From Patescibacteria group bacterium (GTDB lineage: Bacteria > Patescibacteriota > JABMPQ01 > JAHIRA01): a stretch of 17,013 nucleotides of DNA. How positions within the stretch are numbered: position 1 is the stretch's first letter; every line of letters starts with the position of its first letter. Shown piece after piece: positions 4,249-16,737 of this stretch. Made by a program: the position numbers and the translations under genes. The stretch spans positions 1-17,013 of the forward strand of contig JAHIRA010000027.1 of NCBI GenBank assembly GCA_018818905.1, given 5' to 3'. The notes beneath the pieces are model-generated. The model ran no database searches, was not told the DNA's origin, and saw only the letters and a list, made by a program, of their open reading frames with translations.

Positions 4249-4491
4249 TTACAGTTTCACTTCTTCTTCCCATTCATCAACTGTCATATTGAGAATATCT
4301 GCTGCCTTCTTATTCTTGGGAACTGCAATTTCTTCCAGAAGATTGTCCATATCAAGTTTGACTTTCCCAGTGTCCAAAGTAAGTACACTGATATAGCCAA
4401 CGCCACTTGAGCCAGGATTGCCGTACCCATCACAGTATTTGTCATAAGGACCAACAGCTGCATTAACAATTTCTTTTGGTGTTAATGACAT
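4249..4491 (-). CDS. Small unknown protein, first gene of the heliorhodopsin operon
   Basis: This gene encodes 80 residues with no membrane span or signal peptide. The middle is Gly/Tyr rich (around residues 15-33, with KYCDGYGNPGSSGVGYISV); the second half is acidic and likely helical, ending in DEWEEEV. I do not recognise the family. The single Cys at 20 is flanked by aromatic residues. It is a real-gene candidate because it lies in line with, and only 21 bases before, the GadC-like gene, and the intergenic space on both sides is AT-rich. The ATG has no Shine-Dalgarno site, like its neighbours. It could be a small cytoplasmic accessory of the transporter, but nothing in the sequence proves that. 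Confidence 0.65.
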   Translation of the reverse strand: MSLTPKEIVNAAVGPYDKYCDGYGNPGSSGVGYISVLTLDTGKVKLDMDNLLEEIAVPKNKKAADILNMTVDEWEEEVKL

Positions 4492-6544: not shown

Positions 6545-8728
6545 TTACTTCAATTTCTTTCTTTTGAGAAGTAAAGAATTCAGGACCACCGACACAGAAC
6601 TGAAAGCCATAGCCAGTCCAGCAAACTCAGCCTTGAGAAGACCAAGAGCAGCGATAGGAATACCCAGACTGTTATAAAAAAGAGCCCAGAAAAGATTTTG
6701 CTTTATTTTCTTGAAAGTAGCCCGACTGAGCTTGAGAGCCGTGACCACATCCCTGAGATCATTCTTGATCAGGACTATGCCTCCTGACTCTATAGCCACA
6801 TCAGTGCCAGCTCCCATGGCAATGCCAAGATCAGCTTGAGCCAGGGCTGGAGCATCATTGATACCGTCCCCCACCATAGCTACGCGAACCCTTTCTTGCT
6901 GAAGTTTTTTGATTTCCTTGGCTTTATCTTCAGGAAGAACCTCGGCTAGAACTTTGTCGATGCCTACTTGCTTGGCGATAGCTTGAGCTGTTTTTTGATT
7001 GTCTCCAGTTATCATCACGGTTTTTAGACCCATGCTATGAAGGCCCTTAATAGCCTCCGCGCTTGTTTTCTTGATTTTGTCGGCAATAGCAATAAGGCCG
7101 ATAGCTGCCGTCTCGACAGCCAGAATAATAACAGTCTTACCTTGTCTTTCGAGTTCTGTCTTTTGCTCAATAATATCTTTGGAAAGTTCTATTTGAAACT
7201 CTTCTATGAGTGTTTTGGTTCCAAGCAAAACTTTTTTGTTCTCTAACTCACCCACAATACCTTTGCCAACAGCTGCCTCAAAATTACTGACCTCCTGTGC
7301 TTCTATCTTTTCTTGCTGCGCTTTTTTGATGACTGCTGCAGCCAGTGGGTGCTCTGATTTTTTCTCAAGAGAAACTGCCAATCGCAAAACTTCTTCTGTT
7401 TTGTAAGAGTCTGGCTTCAGAGACACAATATCAGTCACGCTGGGCTCACCCTGAGTTAGGGTCCCGGTTTTGTCAAAAACGACGGTCTTAACTTTGTTGG
7501 CTATTTCTAGCATTTCTCCGCTGCGGATAAGAATTCCGTTTTCTGCGCCACGGCCCGTACCAATGATAATAGCTGTGGGAGTCGCCAAGCCCAGAGCGCA
7601 GGGACAAGCAATGACTAACACCGCAGTTGAGGTTAGCAGAGCGTGCGCAAAGGAAGCCGAGAAGCCAAAATACCAGACCAAGAAAGTGATAATGGCAATC
7701 CCTAAAACTGAAGGGACAAAATACTGCGACACCGTATCGGCAAACTTCTGGATGGGAGCTTTTTGACCTTGAGCTTCTTCAACAATTTTGATGATCCCAG
7801 AGAGAACTGTCTCGGCTCCAACTCTGGTGGCCGTAAAAGTGAAGGTTCCAGTTTTGTTAAGAGTGGCACCAGTGACTTCATCGCCAATCTTTTTTTCGAT
7901 TGGCAGACTCTCACCCGAGATCATAGATTCATCGACACTAGAATAACCTTCGGTAATTTTGCCATCAACTGGAATTTTTTCACCCGGACGAACGACAATC
8001 TGATCATCAACGACTACTTCTTCAATAGGTATTTTTGTTTCTTGACCATCTCTGATAACCACAGCTTTTTTTGGTTTCAGATACAAAAGATTCTTGATAG
8101 CTTCTGAAGCCTTGCCTTTGGTTCTGCTTTCTAACCATTTTCCAAGAATAATAAAGGTGACCAATAGAGCCGAGGTCTCGTAGAAGACATCACCCTCGAT
8201 AATATATGTCGTCACCAAACTATAGAAAAAAGCCGCACTGGTTCCCAGAGCCACCAAGGTATCCATGTTGGCCGATTTGTTTCTGAGGGCAGCGAAGGCT
8301 CCTTTGTAGAATCGAAAACCAATGTAGAATTGAATGATGGCAGCCAGAAGTGACTGAATGACCCGACTTTGAAAAGAGTGATCCATAAGAATCATAGACA
8401 GGATCACAATGGGAACTGACAGAATTAAACTCAGAATAAACTGATTTCTTTCTTTGACAATTACTCTTTCCTTGGAGTCTTCCTGCTGTTGCTCCGCTTT
8501 GATATCTATCGCAACAGGCTCAGCCTGATAACCAGATTTCTTGACACTAGCCAAGACTTCATTGTCATCTAGCTTTTTGTCCTCGTATTCGACACTGGCT
8601 TTTTCGGTCGCAAAATTAACACTAGCCTCTTTGACGCCAGGAATTTTTTTGAGATTCTTTTCTACCGTCAAAGCACAGCTAGCGCAATGCATTCCGGTAA
8701 TTTGATAATCTTTTTTTATTTTTGACAT
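6545..8728 (-). CDS. copA: Copper(I)-exporting P-type ATPase
   Basis: This 727-residue P1B-type ATPase pumps Cu+ out of the cytoplasm. It has one N-terminal heavy-metal domain with the GMHCASC motif (C15, C18) and eight membrane spans. It carries the actuator loop SGES (271-274), the membrane metal site CPC (375-377), phosphorylation site DKTGT (D419), the HP dipeptide of P1B pumps (460-461), and the hinge GDGINDAP (620-627). The copper-specific residues YN (685-686) and MAFSS (707-711) in the last two spans point to Cu+ rather than Zn2+ or Cd2+. Length and order are normal for the family. It follows the HMA-TauE-cupredoxin gene by 18 bases and shares its regulation by CsoR. No Shine-Dalgarno site precedes the ATG. 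Expected role: copper detoxification. Confidence 0.97.
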
Positions 8729-8746
8729 ATACTTATTATGCTTATT

Positions 8747-10234
8747 TTATTCTACTCCAATTTGCTGACTACAACCACATGAAGTTGCCCCACAAGCGCC
8801 ACCACACGATTCAGCTTCATCGCAACTACTACTTGTTTCTGATTCAATTTCTTCTTGATCTAAACCGTTGGCATCAGAGATCTCTTTGTTCTCGATGACA
8901 ATAAACTTACCCCAGACCATTTGCATCCAGCAAGAAAACTTGATCTCTCCTGCCTCGGTTGGAGTAAATTCTATAATGTTTTCTCCCTGTTTTAGTTCTT
9001 GTTTAATATTGTAACTCGGAACAATAATTTCATTGGTACACCCAGAGACTTGCTTGGCATCAATCACCCATCTGACGGGAATTCCTTTTTTGATGGACAA
9101 AACATTGGGTGAATAACCACCGTAGCTTAACTCCATGTTCACTACTTGATATTCATCAACTTCTCCATTGACCACCTCTTCTTTACTACTAGCTTGCTGT
9201 CCTGGAACAAAGCTTCCGAATCCATAGCCAAAGTTAATCAATCCACGGTTGAACATAATCAGTCCCAGAATAATAACCACAATACCAGAAAATTTCATAA
9301 TGTTTTTGAGGTAGGCATTCTTGATCAAGGAAATGACACTACCAAAACCAAAGAGAAGTGGTACCGTCCCCAAAGCATAAATGCCCATAGATAGAGCTCC
9401 CGAGACAATACTCCCCGAGGTGAGCGCGTAAAGCTGCATAGCCTGAAGTGGCCCGCAAGGCATAAAACCGTTTAGAAGCCCAACGATAAATGGCCCCTTG
9501 GGATTTTTGGCGTGTCTGTTCTGATACAAAAACTTGGCAATAAATGCGGGGGTTTTGGGTTTTATCTTCTCTAGCCAAGAGAAATTGGTAACCAGGGACA
9601 AGCCCATCAGAACCATAAAAACTGCAGCAATGATAATAACAACTCCAGTAAAGGTTGGGTTGATGCCAAAAAAAGAGCCAACACCACCCAGAATGCCCCC
9701 GATAACTGTGTATGAAATAACTCGACCCAAATTATATTGGAGATGAGGTTTGGAAAAAGAGACCTTGCTTTCTTGAGATTTTTTGGCGGTCGCTGTGTAG
9801 GTCACAATCAAACCTCCGCACATCCCAATGCAGTGGAAACTGGCCAAAACACCAATGAAAAATATCAGAGCATAACTGAGATTTTGCTCATTGAGCCTAG
9901 AAAGAATTTCTAGCCATCCAAGTTTCTGAACCAGAAATGATGCAACCACAAAAAGAATTAAAGCCAGTCCAAAATAAACCAGGTTTCGATAATTCTTCTT
10001 ATTTTTTTCTACCTTGTTGCTTGCTTGTTGAACCTTGTACCCCAACTTCTCGATAGTTTTCTTGATTCTCTTTATTGCGACCTTATGTTCGTCAAATTCT
10101 ATCTGACATGTTCCAGTTTCAAAATCGACTTCAACTTTTCTAACCCCCTCCAAAGCTTTAATATCTGTCTCAATAAGTGTTTTGCAAGACTGACAATGAG
10201 TTCCTTCAAGACGTAGTTTCATTTTCTTGTGCAT
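8747..10234 (-). CDS. HMA - TauE/SafE-type membrane domain - cupredoxin fusion, copper handling
   Basis: This 495-residue, multi-domain membrane protein contains, in order: an N-terminal heavy-metal-associated domain with THCQSC (C14, C17; residues 5-70); a span around 84-103; a TauE/SafE/DsbD-like transport domain (about 118-330) with two half-repeats marked by FHCIGMCGG (133-141) and NGFMPCGPLQ (255-264); a cupredoxin-like domain (about 365-448) with SGCTNE (C399) and SCWMQM (C435, M438) as likely copper ligands; and a Cys-rich tail (C471, C477, C481, C486, C488). Such fusions occur next to copper ATPases and are thought to move or buffer copper across the membrane. The tail may be a further metal-binding extension. 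It starts two bases after the csoR stop, so it is translated from the same CsoR-controlled message. Confidence 0.9.
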   Translation of the reverse strand: MHKKMKLRLEGTHCQSCKTLIETDIKALEGVRKVEVDFETGTCQIEFDEHKVAIKRIKKTIEKLGYKVQQASNKVEKNKKNYRNLVYFGLALILFVVASFLVQKLGWLEILSRLNEQNLSYALIFFIGVLASFHCIGMCGGLIVTYTATAKKSQESKVSFSKPHLQYNLGRVISYTVIGGILGGVGSFFGINPTFTGVVIIIAAVFMVLMGLSLVTNFSWLEKIKPKTPAFIAKFLYQNRHAKNPKGPFIVGLLNGFMPCGPLQAMQLYALTSGSIVSGALSMGIYALGTVPLLFGFGSVISLIKNAYLKNIMKFSGIVVIILGLIMFNRGLINFGYGFGSFVPGQQASSKEEVVNGEVDEYQVVNMELSYGGYSPNVLSIKKGIPVRWVIDAKQVSGCTNEIIVPSYNIKQELKQGENIIEFTPTEAGEIKFSCWMQMVWGKFIVIENKEISDANGLDQEEIESETSSSCDEAESCGGACGATSCGCSQQIGVE

Positions 10235-10236
10235 GT

Positions 10237-10509
10237 CTATTTGTTAAGCAAACGAGTCACGCTCAAAATCTCTTCAATCATCTCTTTTTTCTTCTTCTCA
10301 TTCTTGGTTACCATGGCGTTCTTGAAACATGTCTTGAGATGATTCTCCATTAGCATTTGATGAGCAGACTTGAGAAGACCAATGGCAGCCAGATTTTGTT
10401 GCATGATATCAATACAGTATTTATCTTCTTCAATCATCTTAATGAGTTTGGTCATGAGGCTTTGGGACTTTTTGAAGTTGATGAGAGTTTTCTGTTTGGC
10501 TTTGGTCAT
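10237..10509 (-). CDS. csoR: CsoR-family copper-sensing repressor
   Basis: This 90-residue, all-helical DUF156 protein has the Cu(I) ligand set C32, H57 and C61, with the same 25- and 4-residue spacings as C36/H61/C65 of Mycobacterium tuberculosis CsoR. The apo-form binds DNA and represses; Cu(I) binding releases it. It is the first gene of the copper operon, and a near-perfect 23-bp palindrome lies 23 bases before its start, so autoregulation is expected. No Shine-Dalgarno site precedes the ATG (upstream is AACAACAATCACA). The very Lys-rich N- and C-termini may aid DNA contact. The downstream fusion gene begins after two bases. Confidence 0.93.
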   Translation of the reverse strand: MTKAKQKTLINFKKSQSLMTKLIKMIEEDKYCIDIMQQNLAAIGLLKSAHQMLMENHLKTCFKNAMVTKNEKKKKEMIEEILSVTRLLNK

Positions 10510-10665: not shown

Positions 10666-10710
10666 GGCAGTGCACGTTGAACAAAAACTTTTTCAAAACG
10701 GAGGACTTTT

Positions 10711-11601
10711 ATGAAAAAACCAATCTTGGTTATGCTAGCTGTTTTGTTCTTCTCTTTGCCACAAAAAAATGTTTCGGCCGACAGCTCACAAACTCGAGGC
10801 AAGATCGTACTTCCCCCAATTCCTCCTGAATGGTCAAAAAAAAGAACTCGCCCCGCTAAGAGAAGGGGGTGCCCTCAAAAAAAACACTGTCTTGCAAAAA
10901 TTAAACGGCTGCAGAGAAAGCTGAAATTGTGCCGTGGCCGCAAGTATGTAGCACAAGTTCGCACTTCCTGCAATCTGCAACGATGTCAGCGCGAATTCCA
11001 ACGTCAACTCAGAGTTTTGAAACAAAGAGTCAAGACTATCCGCAAAAAGATAGGAACTCTTGAAAGCAAGCAACTCGATCTCGAAGAAAAAAAAACGAAA
11101 ATGTCTCTGAAAAAAACCGCCCTCGATACGAGAGAGGGTAAAATTCTGAGAAAGTCAGAGTTGCTTGAAGAAAAGGAAGTGCGCCTTTACCAGTGGGATT
11201 TGAAACTAAGGGAAAGAGAGAGAAAGCTTAGAAAAGAGAAGACCTACTTGAAAACTGCTGCCATCGACTACAACAAATGGCGAGAGATCAAAGGTATCAG
11301 AAAGATTCGTTGTGTCATTCCGCTGGGAGCCAGAAACCGTGACATTGGTGAGACTCTTATGGCTAGAAAGCGCAACTGTTACTACTATCTAGGAGGTCAC
11401 TCCCGCCAAACCAAGTGTCGCATCGATATGACCTGGACATGTACTCACGCAAAACCAACATACTGTGGCGTGACTATGCTGGCAACCTGTAAAGGGCTCC
11501 CTTGGGCATTTAAGGGTAGAAGCCAAAGACGTGGCAAATTCAGACGATACCGCTTCCCGGCCCCGTGGCGTCTCATACTAACCAGGGTCACTTCTTTTTG
11601 A
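10711..11601 (+). CDS. Secreted basic Cys-rich coiled-coil protein, unknown family
   Basis: This 296-residue protein has a clear Sec signal peptide: KK, a hydrophobic core (4-16) and a probable cut after V21-S-A23. The mature protein is strikingly basic. It contains a Pro-rich start (33-50), a Cys-containing segment (C54, C60, C74, C87, C92), a long charged coiled coil (about 93-185), and a C-terminal Cys-rich domain (C201, C223, C236, C244, C252, C260) with the aromatic run CYYYLGG. Eleven Cys in an exported protein suggest disulfides; one would be unpaired unless it binds a partner or metal. The start is set by GGAGGA seven bases before the ATG. Ends in TGA and a strong terminator, so it is a single-gene unit. 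I do not recognise the family. Neighbouring kinase genes suggest an envelope role linked to signalling, by context only. Confidence 0.8.
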   Translation: MKKPILVMLAVLFFSLPQKNVSADSSQTRGKIVLPPIPPEWSKKRTRPAKRRGCPQKKHCLAKIKRLQRKLKLCRGRKYVAQVRTSCNLQRCQREFQRQLRVLKQRVKTIRKKIGTLESKQLDLEEKKTKMSLKKTALDTREGKILRKSELLEEKEVRLYQWDLKLRERERKLRKEKTYLKTAAIDYNKWREIKGIRKIRCVIPLGARNRDIGETLMARKRNCYYYLGGHSRQTKCRIDMTWTCTHAKPTYCGVTMLATCKGLPWAFKGRSQRRGKFRRYRFPAPWRLILTRVTSF

Positions 11602-11618
11602 ACAGTGATCTTTTCCCC

Positions 11619-11640
11619 AGCAGGCCTAGCCTGCTTTTTT
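11619..11640 (+). terminator. Rho-independent terminator after the secreted coiled-coil gene
   Basis: AGCAGGC (11619-11625) and GCCTGCT (11629-11635) form a perfect 7-bp stem with a CTA loop, followed by T residues to 11640. It lies 17 bases after the stop. Confidence 0.93.
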
Positions 11641-11675
11641 ATTGCTTGGAAGAGCCAAAAACTGTTCTCCAAACA

Positions 11676-11703
11676 TTGACAAACAATTTCAAAAGTGTAC
11701 ACT
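11676..11703 (+). promoter_or_regulatory. Predicted promoter of the barrel-like/pseudokinase operon
   Basis: Perfect TTGACA (11676-11681), 16-base spacer and TACACT (11698-11703; four of six matches). Just downstream, TGAAAC (11708-11713) and GTTTCA (11719-11724) form a 6-bp inverted repeat around the expected transcription start, a possible operator or 5' hairpin. Confidence 0.55.
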
Positions 11704-11752
11704 CACCTGAAACATTCTGTTTCACCCGAACCTTAACAAGGAGGAAGAGGAA

Positions 11753-12718
11753 ATGACAAAATACATCTTGACTGCTTGGTGTTTCTGTTTTGCCATTGTT
11801 GGTCTTTCAGAAAGCGCTTTTGCAGCGAAAATGCAAAACAAGTGGGACAAAAAGCTAATACGAAACATGCCCTGGGAAGGGTCTGTTTGCAGTACCAATG
11901 CAGATTGTCACACTGAATTGACCTGTGCTATGGGTCAAAGCAAAATTGATCGCTGTCTAAAAGTTCAGGCTGACAAATGTGACCTGAAAGAAGAGGTTTC
12001 AATCAGAAAAGCATACGACAGAATTGGGTGTCGCAATGTCTCACTTTGCGTCTCTAGAAGCCAAAAATCTTTGTGGGAAAAACGATTCAATATTCTCTGT
12101 GAACGTTCAAGAGTAAAGCAAAAAAAGTACTTTGCTGCCTATGTTATTGGCCGCATTGGTCCTGCAATCTTCTTGACCATCAATGACACCACAACCGATC
12201 TAGATACCCTCAATCTTTCTCGTAGCTGGATAGCCAATATGCCTTTTTTTGAACCAGTAATGATTGCGATTGAGACCAAATTCACAGACATCTTTGGCCT
12301 CAGAACTGCTTTTGGCGGAAACTTTGCTCGCACCTTCCAGATTAACGGCCCAACCTGTTATGATTCCCTGCCGCAATGCAACCCTTTCTTGTTTGAGCTT
12401 GTCCTAAATGGTGGTTTCTTTCTCTCTTTTGCCAAAGACTCCTTCCAATTGAGTTTCAATGTCCAAGGCGTTTTCCAACAAGCCTGGCTAGGGGTAGCCC
12501 ATGCAAGCATTAAGCTGGAAGATAACTTTGTTGGTCCATTAATTAGAATGAGATTCAAGCTAGCAGGCGATCCAGCAAAACATGCCTTCGTCGCCATTGA
12601 GCTTGAAGGGGGTATTGCCTTTAACTTCAAAGACAGTAACAAAGCAGTGGTCTTACTGCCCTATGTTGGCCTAAAACTCACAGTCTATCTGGTGCCATTT
12701 GGGTTCACCTGGTTCTAA
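11753..12718 (+). CDS. Secreted protein with Cys-rich N-terminus and beta-rich C-terminal half, unknown family
   Basis: This 321-residue protein has a Sec signal peptide (core 5-18, likely cut after A22-F-A24). The mature N-terminus (about 40-120) holds eight Cys, with C46-STNAD-C52-HTELT-C58, a pattern like the small disulfide modules common in secreted proteins of Myxococcota and some other bacteria. From about 125 on, Cys are rare (only C202, C209) and the sequence alternates hydrophobic and polar residues in strand-like blocks (for example SFQLSFNVQGVF and AFVAIELEGGIAFNF), ending in GFTWF. A C-terminal Phe after a final strand is the signature of outer-membrane barrels, but the half is short, and no homologue is known to me. 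The start is fixed by AAGGAGG 11 bases upstream. The next gene follows after 20 bases with no terminator, so the two are co-transcribed. Confidence 0.8.
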   Translation: MTKYILTAWCFCFAIVGLSESAFAAKMQNKWDKKLIRNMPWEGSVCSTNADCHTELTCAMGQSKIDRCLKVQADKCDLKEEVSIRKAYDRIGCRNVSLCVSRSQKSLWEKRFNILCERSRVKQKKYFAAYVIGRIGPAIFLTINDTTTDLDTLNLSRSWIANMPFFEPVMIAIETKFTDIFGLRTAFGGNFARTFQINGPTCYDSLPQCNPFLFELVLNGGFFLSFAKDSFQLSFNVQGVFQQAWLGVAHASIKLEDNFVGPLIRMRFKLAGDPAKHAFVAIELEGGIAFNFKDSNKAVVLLPYVGLKLTVYLVPFGFTWF

Positions 12719-12738
12719 AACGAAGAAAGGAGATAATC

Positions 12739-13812
12739 ATGAAACACAGCAGCCAGTCTTCTTTTATCGGATTTGTCATTCCTCTCGGAACAAGACAGAT
12801 TCAGATTGAGGAACAACTTGCTTTTGGAAACTCTCAAACTACCCTGCTTAAGGGTGTCGACAAAGCTACTGGAGAGGTCTTTGGTATCAAACACTACGAT
12901 TTTTCCAGAAACAACCGAAAACAAGTAGAAAAGAGATTTTGGCGTGAAGCGCAATCACTTTTTTCTCTCAGCAGCCATCCAAGTTTTTTATCTTTCTCTG
13001 CTAGTACTTGTTTTCTTGACTCATCTTTCCCCGCCGGTTGGATTGTTATGGAACTAGCTCAAGGCGGAACTCTGGCGCAGCTTTTCAAACTAATGAAGAG
13101 ACAAGAGGAGAGGCACGAGAAAAAAATGCCACTTCTGACAATAGCAAGTTTCATGGAAGCTCTTCTTGAGGGAATCGTGCGGCTTGAAGAAGTAGAGATG
13201 ATTCACTGCGTCCTCAACCCCGAAAAAATCCTTCTGTGTTGCCCTTCAGAAGCACCACTTCAGTTCTGCAGCGGAAAAACCTCTGTCCTTTCCGGTAAAA
13301 ATATTCGTATTTCCGGTCTATCAAATCTTAAAACCGTCCCTGAGCTTAAATCTCTCCCTCCAAGCGCCAATCTCCACGGTCTTTACGCCGCCCCAGAAGA
13401 AGTCTCTTCTTTGGAGCCGCAAAAAAGAGCTCTCTATTCTCTGGGTCTTATCTTGTACGAGTTGATTATGGGGAAACTTCCTGAACCCCTTCTTGATATC
13501 CTTAACGATTCCTCCCCTTCCACAGTGAAAAATAAAGCGCTACATGAAGTCAAGCAAAGAACAGAGTGTTTCGATTTTCCACTCGGCCAAATTGAGGTGG
13601 AAAAAGAAGCTCTGTTACATAACTTTGTTCGAGGCCTGACACAAAAAGACCCCAAGAAAAGAATCAGTTCCAAAGCAGCTGTCAATCTCCTGAATAAGCT
13701 AAAGACGAGTCTTAGTGCTGAATCGGGAAACAATCCTTTGGCAGAAACTATGCATATGGAATTTGATCCGTCACGTGTTGCTGTAGTTGATGAGAATATA
13801 GAAAAAAAGTGA
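12739..13812 (+). CDS. Hanks-type pseudokinase
   Basis: This 357-residue cytoplasmic protein has a protein-kinase fold but a broken active site. Kept features: the VAIK-type Lys (K51 in VFGIKHY), a helix-C Glu (E70), the hinge WIVMEL and APE (218-220). Lost features: the Gly-rich loop is degenerate (LAFGNSQTT); HRDLKPEN reads HCVLNPEK (156-163), lacking the catalytic Asp, Lys and metal-binding Asn; DFG reads SGL (192-194); the conserved subdomain IX Asp is Ala (ALYSLG). ATP transfer is therefore very unlikely. Between catalytic loop and SGL it has an insertion starting LLCC, shared with the active kinase downstream. A roughly 35-residue tail follows the fold. Strong SD AAGGAGAT before the ATG. 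Probable role: scaffold or allosteric partner of the neighbouring kinase, linking it to the co-transcribed exported protein. The role is inferred. Confidence 0.87.
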   Translation: MKHSSQSSFIGFVIPLGTRQIQIEEQLAFGNSQTTLLKGVDKATGEVFGIKHYDFSRNNRKQVEKRFWREAQSLFSLSSHPSFLSFSASTCFLDSSFPAGWIVMELAQGGTLAQLFKLMKRQEERHEKKMPLLTIASFMEALLEGIVRLEEVEMIHCVLNPEKILLCCPSEAPLQFCSGKTSVLSGKNIRISGLSNLKTVPELKSLPPSANLHGLYAAPEEVSSLEPQKRALYSLGLILYELIMGKLPEPLLDILNDSSPSTVKNKALHEVKQRTECFDFPLGQIEVEKEALLHNFVRGLTQKDPKKRISSKAAVNLLNKLKTSLSAESGNNPLAETMHMEFDPSRVAVVDENIEKK

Positions 13813-13831
13813 CCCATGCTCTTTTTCACTC

Positions 13832-13862
13832 GCCTTGCCTTCCTGGTAAGGCTTCTTTTTTT
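13832..13862 (+). terminator. Rho-independent terminator after the pseudokinase gene
   Basis: GCCTTGCC (13832-13839) pairs with GGTAAGGC (13845-13852), with one G-T pair and a TTCCT loop, followed by a T-rich run to 13862. It lies 19 bases after the stop and closes the operon begun at the barrel-like gene. Confidence 0.9.
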
Positions 13863-13883
13863 GCTGCCATTCTTCTCTAACAC

Positions 13884-13911
13884 TTGACTTTGACCCTTAT
13901 ATAGCTACAAT
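13884..13911 (+). promoter_or_regulatory. Predicted promoter of the membrane kinase gene
   Basis: TTGACT (13884-13889), 16-base spacer and TACAAT (13906-13911). A 6-bp inverted repeat, AACACT (13879-13884) and AGTGTT (13912-13917), brackets the promoter and might be an operator, though six bases can occur by chance. A second TTGACA (13928-13933) has no properly spaced -10. Confidence 0.55.
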
Positions 13912-13968
13912 AGTGTTGGTTTGCACTTTGACAATTAAAAAATACACTTACGCAGAAAGGAGCGTGGC

Positions 13969-16683
13969 ATGACACGAGGTGATAACCAGAGATTCGGCCT
14001 TGGAACTCAGATTGATATCAGCGACTTCAGAGTCACCCTAAAACGACAAATTGGTATAGGTGCTAGTTCCATTGTTTTTGAAGGCGAGGACGAAAGCATT
14101 CAACGTCCCATAGCCATTAAAACCTCTTTTTTTAACTCTGTAAAAGACCCAGAATACCAAGCTTTTGTGGATGAGGTGGAAAATCTGGGACTGATTGGCA
14201 ACCATCCTCACATTTTGGCCTATTACGGTCACGCCTGCGTGACAAGAGAGGAGGATACACCTCTGAGTGGATGGATCGCCCTGGAATATGCTCGCGGAGA
14301 TACTGTTGCCAGGCTTATAGAGTCAACCAGATCTTCAGACAGGCTTCTGCCTTTACTCACTGCTCTATCGATTGCTAAAGGCGTAGCCCTGGCTATTTCT
14401 TACCTTGAACGCAAAGGATTGGTTCACGCTGACATCAAACCAGAAAACTGTTTTTTGTGCTGCACCCCAACTGAGCTTGAAAACTACAACGCTGGTCAAG
14501 TTAAGGCAGGCATCAAAACAGAACATATCAAGCTCGGAGACTTTGGTATTACTAGTCTCCCAGAGATTTACCACAAGAGGTACATAGAAGATAAACGACT
14601 CCATGGAACCCCGCTTTATATTGCTCCAGAGCAGATTTTGGGAAACATCGTCCCTGGTAAAACAGATCTGTACTCGCTCGGGGTAATGCTCTACCAGATG
14701 GTCACTGGAGGCTTTCCCAAAGAGATACACGAGATCATTGGTCGAACTTATGAAAGCTCTAAAGACCAATTCTCAACAATGATGGTTCACCGACTTTTAG
14801 AGCCAACCCTGACTCTGCCACCCAATGTGGTTCATCAGAAAAACTACGCGTTTCTGTTAAACGATCTTATCATCCGACTAACTGCTAAAGACCCTGCTGA
14901 CCGGCCCAGCCCCGCAGAAGTGATCAACAATTTAAGTGTTATTCAAGTAGGCTTGAGCAAGTCAAACCTCTCAGAAACACAAAGATTTTCCTCCAGAACT
15001 TCTAGAATCGTCACCCGTGAAACCACTGATCAACCAACAGAAGACCTTTGCCAGGGCAAGAAAGAAAAAAGGGAGCCTCTTTATTTTCCAGAAACTTCTG
15101 TCTATCCGAAAAACATTGAGATCGTTCCTTCTTCTCCACCCCCAAAGCATCTACCTGAAATGTCAGGCTCAAGCTTAACCGAAGTCATGAAAAATCTTAG
15201 CGAATCATCTTCAAGTTCTACTCCTAGGAAATTTCCTGATGACAAAACTGCAGAAATACCCAATCCTATTCCGACGAGAAAGGAAGAAGATTTCCAGGGA
15301 AATAGTTTTAGGCTTTCCTCACTTCCTGATACAGAAATGCGTAAAAATGATGGTCGGATAGAAGTACTGCAAGTTGTTGATCTCGCGTCAGAAGACGACA
15401 AAACTCCAGAGCAAGCTTTGCAAAAGGAAATTGAAGAACTACGAAAAGCAGACGTTACAATTCAAGAGAAGATCAGCCGGGGAAAAGCTTTAAGCGATAC
15501 CGAAGCCTACATAGTGAGCTGCATTTATGGAGAGGCAGGTCTCATCAATAAACCTCTTCCCGCCTTTGAACAGCCTGCGGTTTCCATAGCTCTTGATCCT
15601 TTCGGATCCGTAGGTCATGTGGCTCCGTATCAGACTCCAACACCAGTACCAAAAAAAGTCCGCCCACCCCCACCCAAGACCACTATCGACCCTTTCCCGC
15701 TTGGAGCATTTGGGGAATTGGCAAACGAGAATGAAACCAGGACTGGTGATTTTATCTCTGGTGACACCGACCCAGATAAGTGGGAATCTAGTCAACGAAG
15801 GAAGAAAACTTTTTTCAAGTTTCTTTTCTTTTTTCTCGGAGTAGGGAGTGTTCTTGGGGCTCTGCTTGTCATTCCTCAATATGTTTTGTCCGAGTGTTTT
15901 TGTTGGCACTGGACCTCTTACTGCCTAATCAAAAACAAGAACGGAATCACTCTCAAGAAGTTCCCAAGAGCAGAAATGCTAATTCTGAAAAAAAGGTGGG
16001 TTTGGGAGAAATACAAAGCAGCCTCCTTCGCTGTATCTCCAGATGGCTATGTTCTGACCTCTAGCCTAGATCTCAAGCAGATTAGCCTCATAAAACTCTT
16101 GAAAACAGGCCAACTAGACTCAAGCAACGTCAAAACGTATCAATCCAAATACGGGAGATTCTATACTTCTTTAGTTCTTTGGCACTCAGACTCCAAATCT
16201 TTTCTTGCTGCAGGCTTCTATAACAATAGAAGAAAATTTCTCTTAGCTTTGGGGAAAGTTGACCTGAAGAAAAAATCCATCATTCACCTAGCTAGCCTGA
16301 CAAGGTTAAGACGAGGAGAGTTTCCGTGTCGTGCAAGACAGCACCAAGACAAAATTAGTATTAGCTTCTGCAATAACACTGCCAAGGGTATTGCTTTGCC
16401 TCATCGTGAACTCTCTTGCCATTTCAAACCAAACAACAAAATTGTCTGTCGCAAATCTTCTAGCCTCGTCATTTCTGAAAGCTTTGACAATAGCGGCATT
16501 CCTGCCTTGAGAAAAAAGGCGGGACATCTTCAGCGTTTCTATCCGCTCAAACACAGTCAATTTATGAGTCAACAAGGCAACTTCATAGCCAGCATCTCTA
16601 GTCAACCCAAGACAAAGGAAGAAGTTCTGACTCTCTGGAAAATAAAACCTGCCACTATTTGTCAGATTCTCTGCTCGAAGTGA
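13969..16683 (+). CDS. Membrane-spanning Ser/Thr protein kinase with Cys-containing ectodomain
   Basis: This 904-residue protein has an intact Hanks-type kinase domain at about 20-325: Gly loop GIGASS (29-34), K51 in IAIKTS, HADIKPEN (153-160), DFG (191-193), activation segment GTPLYIAPE (213-221) and D233 in KTDLYSLG. The catalytic loop lacks the Arg of HRD (it is HAD). An insertion beginning FLCC lies between N160 and D191. A long Ser/Pro-rich cytoplasmic linker (about 330-610, with a short helical piece at 478-505) leads to one membrane span (about 616-640), then a 265-residue external domain with Cys at 643, 645 and 652 and more near the end. That domain has repeated strand-like blocks (FAVSPDGYVLTS, SFLAAGFYN, VLTLWKI) suggestive of an incomplete beta-propeller. 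Strong SD AAAGGAG; ends in TGA plus terminator. Likely senses an external cue and phosphorylates cytoplasmic targets. Confidence 0.93.
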   Translation: MTRGDNQRFGLGTQIDISDFRVTLKRQIGIGASSIVFEGEDESIQRPIAIKTSFFNSVKDPEYQAFVDEVENLGLIGNHPHILAYYGHACVTREEDTPLSGWIALEYARGDTVARLIESTRSSDRLLPLLTALSIAKGVALAISYLERKGLVHADIKPENCFLCCTPTELENYNAGQVKAGIKTEHIKLGDFGITSLPEIYHKRYIEDKRLHGTPLYIAPEQILGNIVPGKTDLYSLGVMLYQMVTGGFPKEIHEIIGRTYESSKDQFSTMMVHRLLEPTLTLPPNVVHQKNYAFLLNDLIIRLTAKDPADRPSPAEVINNLSVIQVGLSKSNLSETQRFSSRTSRIVTRETTDQPTEDLCQGKKEKREPLYFPETSVYPKNIEIVPSSPPPKHLPEMSGSSLTEVMKNLSESSSSSTPRKFPDDKTAEIPNPIPTRKEEDFQGNSFRLSSLPDTEMRKNDGRIEVLQVVDLASEDDKTPEQALQKEIEELRKADVTIQEKISRGKALSDTEAYIVSCIYGEAGLINKPLPAFEQPAVSIALDPFGSVGHVAPYQTPTPVPKKVRPPPPKTTIDPFPLGAFGELANENETRTGDFISGDTDPDKWESSQRRKKTFFKFLFFFLGVGSVLGALLVIPQYVLSECFCWHWTSYCLIKNKNGITLKKFPRAEMLILKKRWVWEKYKAASFAVSPDGYVLTSSLDLKQISLIKLLKTGQLDSSNVKTYQSKYGRFYTSLVLWHSDSKSFLAAGFYNNRRKFLLALGKVDLKKKSIIHLASLTRLRRGEFPCRARQHQDKISISFCNNTAKGIALPHRELSCHFKPNNKIVCRKSSSLVISESFDNSGIPALRKKAGHLQRFYPLKHSQFMSQQGNFIASISSQPKTKEEVLTLWKIKPATICQILCSK

Positions 16684-16710
16684 CCCACTCTTCCCCCGTT
16701 CTTTCTAATA

Positions 16711-16737
16711 GACACCCATACCCGGGTGTCTTTTTTT
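16711..16737 (+). terminator. Rho-independent terminator after the membrane kinase gene
   Basis: GACACCC (16711-16717) and GGGTGTC (16724-16730) form a perfect 7-bp stem with an ATACCC loop, followed by seven T (16731-16737). It lies 27 bases after the kinase stop. The remaining space to the transposase fragment (16738-16879) shows no gene. Confidence 0.94.

Follow-up and report, generated by a model that had tools for sequence, protein, structure and literature searches.

A receptor-type kinase, its degenerate paralog and two exported proteins among the Shine-Dalgarno-led genes of a Patescibacteria genome

Receptor kinases of the PknB and PknD type are built from a cytosolic Hanks kinase domain, a linker, one transmembrane (TM) segment and an exposed C-terminal sensor. 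This article describes a gene for a comparable kinase, D (904 aa), and the three genes that precede it, which encode A (296 aa), B (321 aa), and C (357 aa), on contig JAHIRA010000027.1 of a Patescibacteria genome; the entire contig of 17,013 bases was analyzed and is referred to here as the window. In mycobacteria, the tail of the pseudokinase MviN is phosphorylated by PknB, according to PMC12599244. The original prediction for the window, made from its sequence alone, had proposed that A–D form a signaling cassette of two exported Cys-rich proteins, a pseudokinase and a transmembrane kinase. The anatomy of the four genes stands, but they are not yet established as a system of their own. Our explanation, for which the case is evenly balanced, is that A–D constitute an acquired accessory receptor-kinase locus in which D signals, C is its non-catalytic partner or substrate and the exported A and B are possibly the structure that is sensed. 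A more interesting finding than A–D themselves is the class of Shine-Dalgarno (SD)-led genes to which they belong in an otherwise SD-poor genome.

The genome that carries A–D (G000) is metagenome-assembled and comprises 1.14 Mb in 186 contigs, with a completeness of 87.9% and a contamination of 3.9%; the window is its contig C106. It was compared with a genome of the sister genus (G001) and with other Patescibacteria genomes, of which G004 and G043 are considered in detail, and its class is represented by seven genomes in the collection used. Contigs are denoted by C-numbers and loci by L-numbers.

The kinase D possesses a HADIKPEN catalytic loop and a DFG motif, with the Lys, Glu, catalytic Asp, and Asn residues all present, and its best Protein Data Bank (PDB) matches by sequence are PknB entries. 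A linker of about 280 residues separates the kinase domain from one hydrophobic segment and a C-terminal ectodomain, so that D is, by motif content and hydropathy, a Hanks-type receptor Ser/Thr kinase with a single predicted TM segment and an exposed sensor domain. The ectodomain matches no Pfam family, including NHL or any other Pfam propeller repeat. Its single-sequence AlphaFold model has a pLDDT of 44, and most of its listed Foldseek matches are propellers, without any reaching E <= 0.001; the model thus points, weakly, to what is probably a beta-propeller. C also reaches the Pfam kinase cut-off, and carries no further Pfam domain above cut-off. It has HCVLNPEK in place of HRDLKPEN and SGL in place of DFG, whereby the HRD Asp, the catalytic-loop Asn and DFG are lost; the beta3 Lys (Lys51) and the alpha-C Glu (Glu70) are retained. 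The top PDB match of C by sequence is ULK4, which is itself termed a pseudokinase in PMC12599244. Judged by these motifs, C is a bacterial pseudokinase, with a kinase fold from which catalytic residues have been lost. The anticipated degenerate kinase and active-looking kinase with an external Cys-containing domain are therefore both recognizable in the window.

C and D are 29% identical and, following the catalytic loop, both carry an insertion with LCC that is absent from five other kinases aligned. In a tree of ten kinases they are sisters (support 99/99), with a branch of 3.0 for C against 0.94 for D, so that C is a copy of D that has decayed after duplication. Two further kinases of the genome exceed the Pfam cut-off, one on C175, whose NHL repeats suggest a propeller ectodomain there, and one on C120; a single match below the cut-off lies on C76. 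The kinases of C175 and C120 cluster with those of the sister genus (96/99), while C and D are placed, weakly (76/89), beside a kinase from a genomic island of G004, in a tree for which the program flags long branches and some joins are unsure. The pair therefore seems to have a history other than that of the resident kinases.

Relatives of the locus were sought widely. B, C, and the D ectodomain, the three queries used against 5.8 billion proteins, match only themselves. In 57 other genomes nothing matched A or B, and D itself gave kinase-domain matches in G004 and G043 only; a C/D profile applied to 285 other Patescibacteria genomes at E <= 1e-12 recovered one kinase outside the window, that of G004, and a scan of genome contigs with D yielded no relative. 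The view of A–D as a conserved four-gene system thus fails in the searches made, which found no relatives. What survives of the proposed signaling cassette is that D and its own degenerate paralog, side by side, make a plausible signaling pair, and that all four genes share translation signals by which they differ from their neighbors. A–D look like an accessory, lineage-restricted locus. An origin from a phage or plasmid was considered and set aside, there being, with one protein searched per collection, no match for B in plasmids, for C in phages or for A in viral contigs, where six pattern-matching stretches were found and none was confirmed. No exact repeats of at least 10 bp occur between the two flanks of A–D. 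No paper on the subject was found by title for Patescibacteria or the Candidate Phyla Radiation, in a literature search with most subscription journals outside its coverage.

Both exported proteins have Sec-like N termini and are rich in Cys (11 in A, 12 in B), in line with the original prediction. A consists of a hydrophobic signal, a middle part that appears coiled-coil-like by eye, and a Cys-containing C-terminal part; with 81 Lys and Arg against 22 Asp and Glu it is strongly basic as well as Cys-rich and could bind anionic surfaces. In B, a signal of about residues 1–24, which includes two of the Cys, is followed by a Cys-rich N-terminal part (with the motif CSTNADC) and a beta-rich C-terminal part ending in FGFTWF. 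Its beta-type alternation (z 2.4–2.6) lies above that of 199 of 200 proteins of its own genome, and in the C-terminal half it is outranked among 200 own proteins by L063:5692 alone, another SD-led exported protein. A signal peptide, amphipathic beta strands and an aromatic C terminus would be expected of an outer-membrane barrel; the single-sequence AlphaFold model of B (pLDDT 32) is unusable, and the earlier description of B as barrel-like is only weakly supported by its sequence. Omp85/BamA was found in none of the seven genomes of the class, with seven of 14 controls positive. As it stands, the candidate of an outer-membrane beta-barrel was therefore rejected, and any barrel that B does form would probably not depend on BAM here. 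A surface-layer protein, a secreted beta protein, or a protein destined for the envelope of another cell are guesses at what B may be. The protein that outranks it (L063 5692–6279) has a counterpart in the sister genus (L129 11447–12037), so that an SD-led exported beta-rich protein occurs in two genera at 64–65% identity despite no Omp85 being found in the class.

Most genes of the genome lack an SD sequence, and all four genes A–D have one. Start signals were scored as anti-SD runs without the 3' end of the host's own 16S rRNA, which is absent from the 130 loci examined. Runs of at least 5 precede four of four A–D genes, as the original prediction of strong SD sequences would have it, compared with 13 of 99 other open reading frames (ORFs; p = 5e-4, 103 ORFs from the first 23 contigs), at least two of these 13 (L060:6684 and L068:4337) being probably not genes. 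In a larger sample of 200 ORFs of at least 150 aa from 63 contigs, from which B was dropped by a mechanical overlap rule and scored apart, 31 have such runs. Runs of at least 7 are found at 5.0% of starts and at 0.37% of 1355 internal ATGs, and the SD-led minority is therefore real. All four kinase genes above the Pfam cut-off belong to it (runs of 7, 7, 8, and 5). The class also differs in codon usage, since a codon model of SD-led genes is preferred by 64% of 28 SD-led genes outside A–D and by 12% of 169 SD-poor genes (p = 7e-6). Ranked against SD-poor genes on this scale, A reaches the 97th, C the 96th, and D the 92nd percentile. Of 5000 four-gene sets drawn at random from native genes, 4968 fit the SD-led model less well than A–D do jointly, and 32 fit it as well.

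In terms of content, Cys-rich exported candidates make up six of the 31 SD-led genes and one of the 169 SD-poor genes (p = 6e-5). The six include A and a pilin-like protein just at the limit, and the single SD-poor candidate looks cytosolic by eye. The SD-led class thereby holds Ser/Thr kinases, nearly all of the Cys-rich exported proteins sampled, and the two exported proteins with the strongest beta alternation in the sample. Eighteen of the 28 SD-led proteins outside A–D were scanned singly and five of these exceed a Pfam cut-off, a rate that is not valid for the class because the ten others include several housekeeping-like proteins (by eye). It is tentatively suggested, as a reading that we regard as rather unlikely, that the class is a gene set for host interaction, marked at the level of translation and assembled from genes of SD-using diderm bacteria, of which A–D would be one cluster. 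Plain contamination is an unlikely source of the class, since SD-led genes adjoin SD-poor ones on each of eleven contigs inspected. Other members of the class were noted as well. One locus (L055, G000:C5, 234–4242, minus strand) encodes two SD-led membrane proteins of 818 and 469 aa with no Pfam match, the basic tails of which have the identical ending DDGNEGIGQ. An SD-led membrane protein at L099 2986–3852, again with no Pfam match and the most codon-atypical SD-led gene of G000, is 80% identical to its counterpart in the sister genus (L129 12257–13138).

Import is favored by regions of odd GC content around kinases in other Patescibacteria. On contig C38 of G004, an island (L011 7323–11656) encoding a kinase, a TPR-like protein, and a LamG lipoprotein has 58–60% GC amid 36–44% GC; the kinase has a sub-threshold PEGA match, and the flanks are low-GC nucleotide-sugar genes. 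The island lipoprotein is 49% identical over 71 residues to a MopE-repeat protein on contig C18 of G000, a likeness that points in the same direction. On contig C2 of G043, a kinase gene (58% GC), a GGDEF gene (58%), and a gene for an exported beta-rich protein (65%) lie among neighbors of mostly 43–51%. Two tandem kinase genes on contig C1 of G043 (54 and 59%) stand out less, one neighbor also having 58%. These tandem kinases (L013 6067–8085) both exceed the Pfam cut-off and have, by eye, HSDVKPDN and HRDVKPHN loops.

The same start signals could instead mark a native translational regulon, in which some vertically inherited genes, a minority that includes those for kinases and for exported Cys-rich and beta-rich proteins, are controlled through SD-dependent initiation and A–D are one cluster of these rather than foreign, an alternative that we consider possible but doubtful. 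The sheer size and reality of the SD-led minority are in keeping with it. Two gene pairs, moreover, keep their SD between G000 and G001, namely L063:5692/L129:11447 (64–65% identical, runs of 6 and 6) and L099:3852/L129:13138 (80% identical, runs of 7 and 7), so that the mark need not mean recent transfer, and in G001 the 23 SD-led genes among 130 do not stand out in GC3 (p = 0.46). A vertically kept regulon accords less well with the divergent codon usage of the class in G000 and with G004, where SD-led genes have a GC3 of 0.59 against 0.42 (nine of 105 genes, p = 4e-5), though at least two of these nine are housekeeping genes by eye (recA and ftsZ).

Besides the SD-keeping pairs and the GC3 of G001, a number of observations weigh against the explanation given at the outset or against the weight placed on the SD mark. 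The GC and GC3 of A–D are close to those of native genes, and the codon usage of B is native-like (75th percentile, log-likelihood ratio -2.2) despite its strong SD. Outside G000, runs of at least 5 stand at the called start of only two of six kinases. Several of the 28 SD-led genes outside A–D are housekeeping by eye (SSB, MiaA, RNase Y, RibBA-like). The rule for Cys-rich export (a hydrophobic N terminus and at least 2.5% Cys) had its limit set after looking, and a plain signal-peptide rule shows exported products at only a modest excess in SD-led over SD-poor genes (11 of 31 vs. 32 of 169), with five of 19 for runs of at least 6. In the G001 ortholog of the barrel-like L063 protein, beta alternation reaches only z 1.5. 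No FHA reader was found at E <= 0.001 in the 88% complete genome, with six of 14 controls positive. A likeness to Myxococcota-style genes is presumptive at most. On balance, the SD-led class is at least partly old and may be the footprint of transfer, a regulon at the level of translation, or both at once.

What is directly observed is gene structure, the paralogy of C and D, the loss and retention of motifs, shared translation signals and the finding of no relatives in the searches made. Beyond this, we infer that A–D were most likely acquired from an SD-using bacterium. The D ectodomain would read a surface or neighbor-cell cue, and this would switch on the cytosolic kinase domain, probably by dimerization. 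C, as a duplicate of the D kinase domain without catalysis, would be a soluble protein that serves D as an allosteric partner, decoy, or substrate, the simplest reading for a protein that keeps the nucleotide Lys–Glu pair. B, probably on the same transcript as C, and A may form a cell-surface structure sensed by D; this is the least supported step, and a contact of either protein with D is suggested only by adjacency. If the explanation is true, Patescibacteria carry imported kinase circuits that are recognizable by their start signals, and such signals would offer a cheap route to the genes by which uncultured, presumably host-bound cells sense their surroundings.

The layout of the locus is given in the table. 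Four consecutive plus-strand ORFs are present as described, and are likely to be transcribed as three units, A, B–C, and D. In the sampled region, predicted promoters (10 vs. 6.6 expected from shuffled sequence) and terminators (8 vs. 7.9) are not above chance in total, for which reason only the placement of the sites counts as support. The shared promoter style is less clear than claimed, since B and D are each preceded by a sigma70-like site that matches at 10 of 12 positions and no such site was listed upstream of A. Terminator-like hairpins lie directly behind A, C, and D. Co-transcription of B with C is probable given an intergenic gap of 20 bp.

Table. Coordinates of the A–D genes and associated features in the window.
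Feature	Coordinates	Strand	Evidence
A: predicted exported basic Cys-rich protein, 296 aa	10711..11601	+	ORF; no Pfam family over cut-off
B: predicted exported protein, 321 aa	11753..12718	+	ORF
C: predicted pseudokinase, 357 aa, without signal or TM	12739..13812	+	ORF; PF00069 55.6 bits
D: predicted transmembrane Ser/Thr kinase, 904 aa	13969..16683	+	ORF; PF00069 114 bits
D kinase domain	14035..14928	+	Pfam kinase domain match
D hydrophobic segment, residues 614–640, predicted TM	15808..15888	+	hydropathy up to 2.39
D ectodomain, residues 641–904 (264 aa), possibly beta-propeller	15889..16680	+	9 Cys; no Pfam family
SD of A, GGAGG	10700..10704	+	anti-SD run 5
SD of B, AAGGAGG	11738..11744	+	anti-SD run 7
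SD of C, AAAGGAG	12726..12732	+	anti-SD run 7
SD of D, AAAGGAG	13956..13962	+	anti-SD run 7
Promoter-like site upstream of B, TTGACA-16-TACACT	11676..11703	+	sigma70-like
Promoter-like site upstream of D, TTGACT-16-TACAAT	13884..13911	+	sigma70-like
Terminator-like hairpin 3' of A	11619..11635	+	hairpin with T run
Terminator-like hairpin 3' of C	13832..13852	+	hairpin with T run
Terminator-like hairpin 3' of D	16710..16731	+	hairpin with T run
IS30-family transposase C-terminal end, cut by contig end	16880..17013	-	tblastn

The separate hairpins mean that A, B–C, and D need not be co-regulated, and this bears on a plainer explanation to which we give substantial but minority weight, namely that the four genes are merely neighbors, with C and D as a receptor kinase pair of the ordinary sort and two unrelated exported proteins, A and B, in the same accessory region. 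It is consistent with there being no conserved neighborhood in the searches made, and with SD-led genes for Cys-rich exported proteins on C18, C103, and C111 (L068, L093, and L100; 4.5–6.8 kb), where no kinase was found. The apparent co-transcription of B and C is less easily explained as mere adjacency, as are the exported Cys-containing lipoprotein two genes from the kinase in G004 and the exported beta-rich protein about 4 kb from the kinase, with two other genes between, on C2 of G043. The transposase remnant sits on the far side of A–D and has no Pfam match; the six plasmid records listed, out of 1154 matched and all at less than 60% identity, are annotated as IS30-type transposases.

The left half of the contig is that of a Patescibacteria genome. 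Its DsbD/cupredoxin gene product is 64% identical to JAHJQX010000029.1 and 45–63% identical to other Patescibacteria/Parcubacteria records (17 loci, contig scan), and in the sister genus, which retains the heliorhodopsin–p190–CopA gene order and from which A–D are absent, heliorhodopsin is 87% and CopA 73% identical. This absence beside a kept gene order, like the transposase remnant, accords with acquisition of A–D. A binning error, by which the contig or its right half would come from another organism, might be suspected in a MAG of this fragmentation and contamination, the more so as its class yielded no relatives of either A or B. It is very improbable in view of the left-half matches to the same-class G001 and G004 (heliorhodopsin 87%, CopA 73 and 64%, DsbD 64%) and of the mixing of SD-led with SD-poor genes noted above.

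Several genes of this half, all on the minus strand, deserve mention. The heliorhodopsin gene (1968–2774, Pfam E 5e-103) adjoins a gene for a DUF6790 membrane protein at 1440–1934; the title of PMC8612252 links heliorhodopsins to monoderms. A probable copper-handling set (6545–10509) comprises a CsoR-type repressor, an HMA–DsbD–cupredoxin fusion, and a CopA-type ATPase, the DsbD fusion being matched in G001 only by a piece with a stop. An 80-aa ORF (4249–4491), adjoining an amino acid permease, matches pyruvoyl histidine decarboxylase (PF02329) over its first 60 positions and looks truncated, and a HepT-like and nucleotidyltransferase pair (485–1334) has a toxin–antitoxin type of arrangement. 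On C38 of G004, a 604-aa sugar-nucleotide dehydratase-like ORF (L011 8–1822) seems by eye to carry an intein-like insertion.

Set against known systems, A–D share with the regions on C38 of G004 and on C2 and C1 of G043 a Ser/Thr kinase in or near odd-GC genes, some of which encode exported proteins, and five of eight genes there have a run of at least 5 at the called start. These regions differ from A–D in their higher GC, in PEGA, TPR, and LamG partners, in having no pseudokinase recognized by eye, and in the lack of a match to A and of any to B with E below 0.29. The kinases of the MADS mad6 and PD-T4-6 defense systems resemble D in the kinase domain only (PADLOC mad6 E 2e-46), D reaching 46 of the 460 bits of the NCBIfam cut-off for MAD6 and A and B having no PADLOC match; a reading of D as a defense kinase was accordingly rejected. 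The overall plan of D is that of the PknB/PknD type, with the cytosolic Hanks kinase, linker, single predicted TM segment and exposed C-terminal sensor. It differs from the PASTA kinases (PknB/StkP) in having no PASTA domain (113.7 bits against the cut-off of 450 of the PASTA kinase model) and from PknD-like NHL propeller kinases in having no NHL repeats, which the C175 kinase of the same genome does possess. A parallel for the pair is the mycobacterial MviN (ActPs3)–PknB–FhaA system, in which, according to PMC12599244, a pseudokinase likewise stands alongside an active receptor kinase. C resembles MviN in a tail with Thr behind the kinase fold (by eye), and differs in being stand-alone, in having no TM segment, in keeping the beta3 Lys and in a genome where no FHA protein was found. 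As the families are defined in that paper, ActPs1–3, GLW, and DYD have the beta3 Lys replaced or all three motifs degraded, whereas C keeps Lys51 and Glu70; DLHK pseudokinases keep the HRD Asp, where C has Val; and CP1 pseudokinases have a linked COG3899 domain, whereas C is a single-domain protein of 357 aa by Pfam. If the explanation holds, C and D are also a stand-alone pair of kinase and pseudokinase whose duplication history can be read, lying beyond the bacterial pseudokinase families named in that paper.

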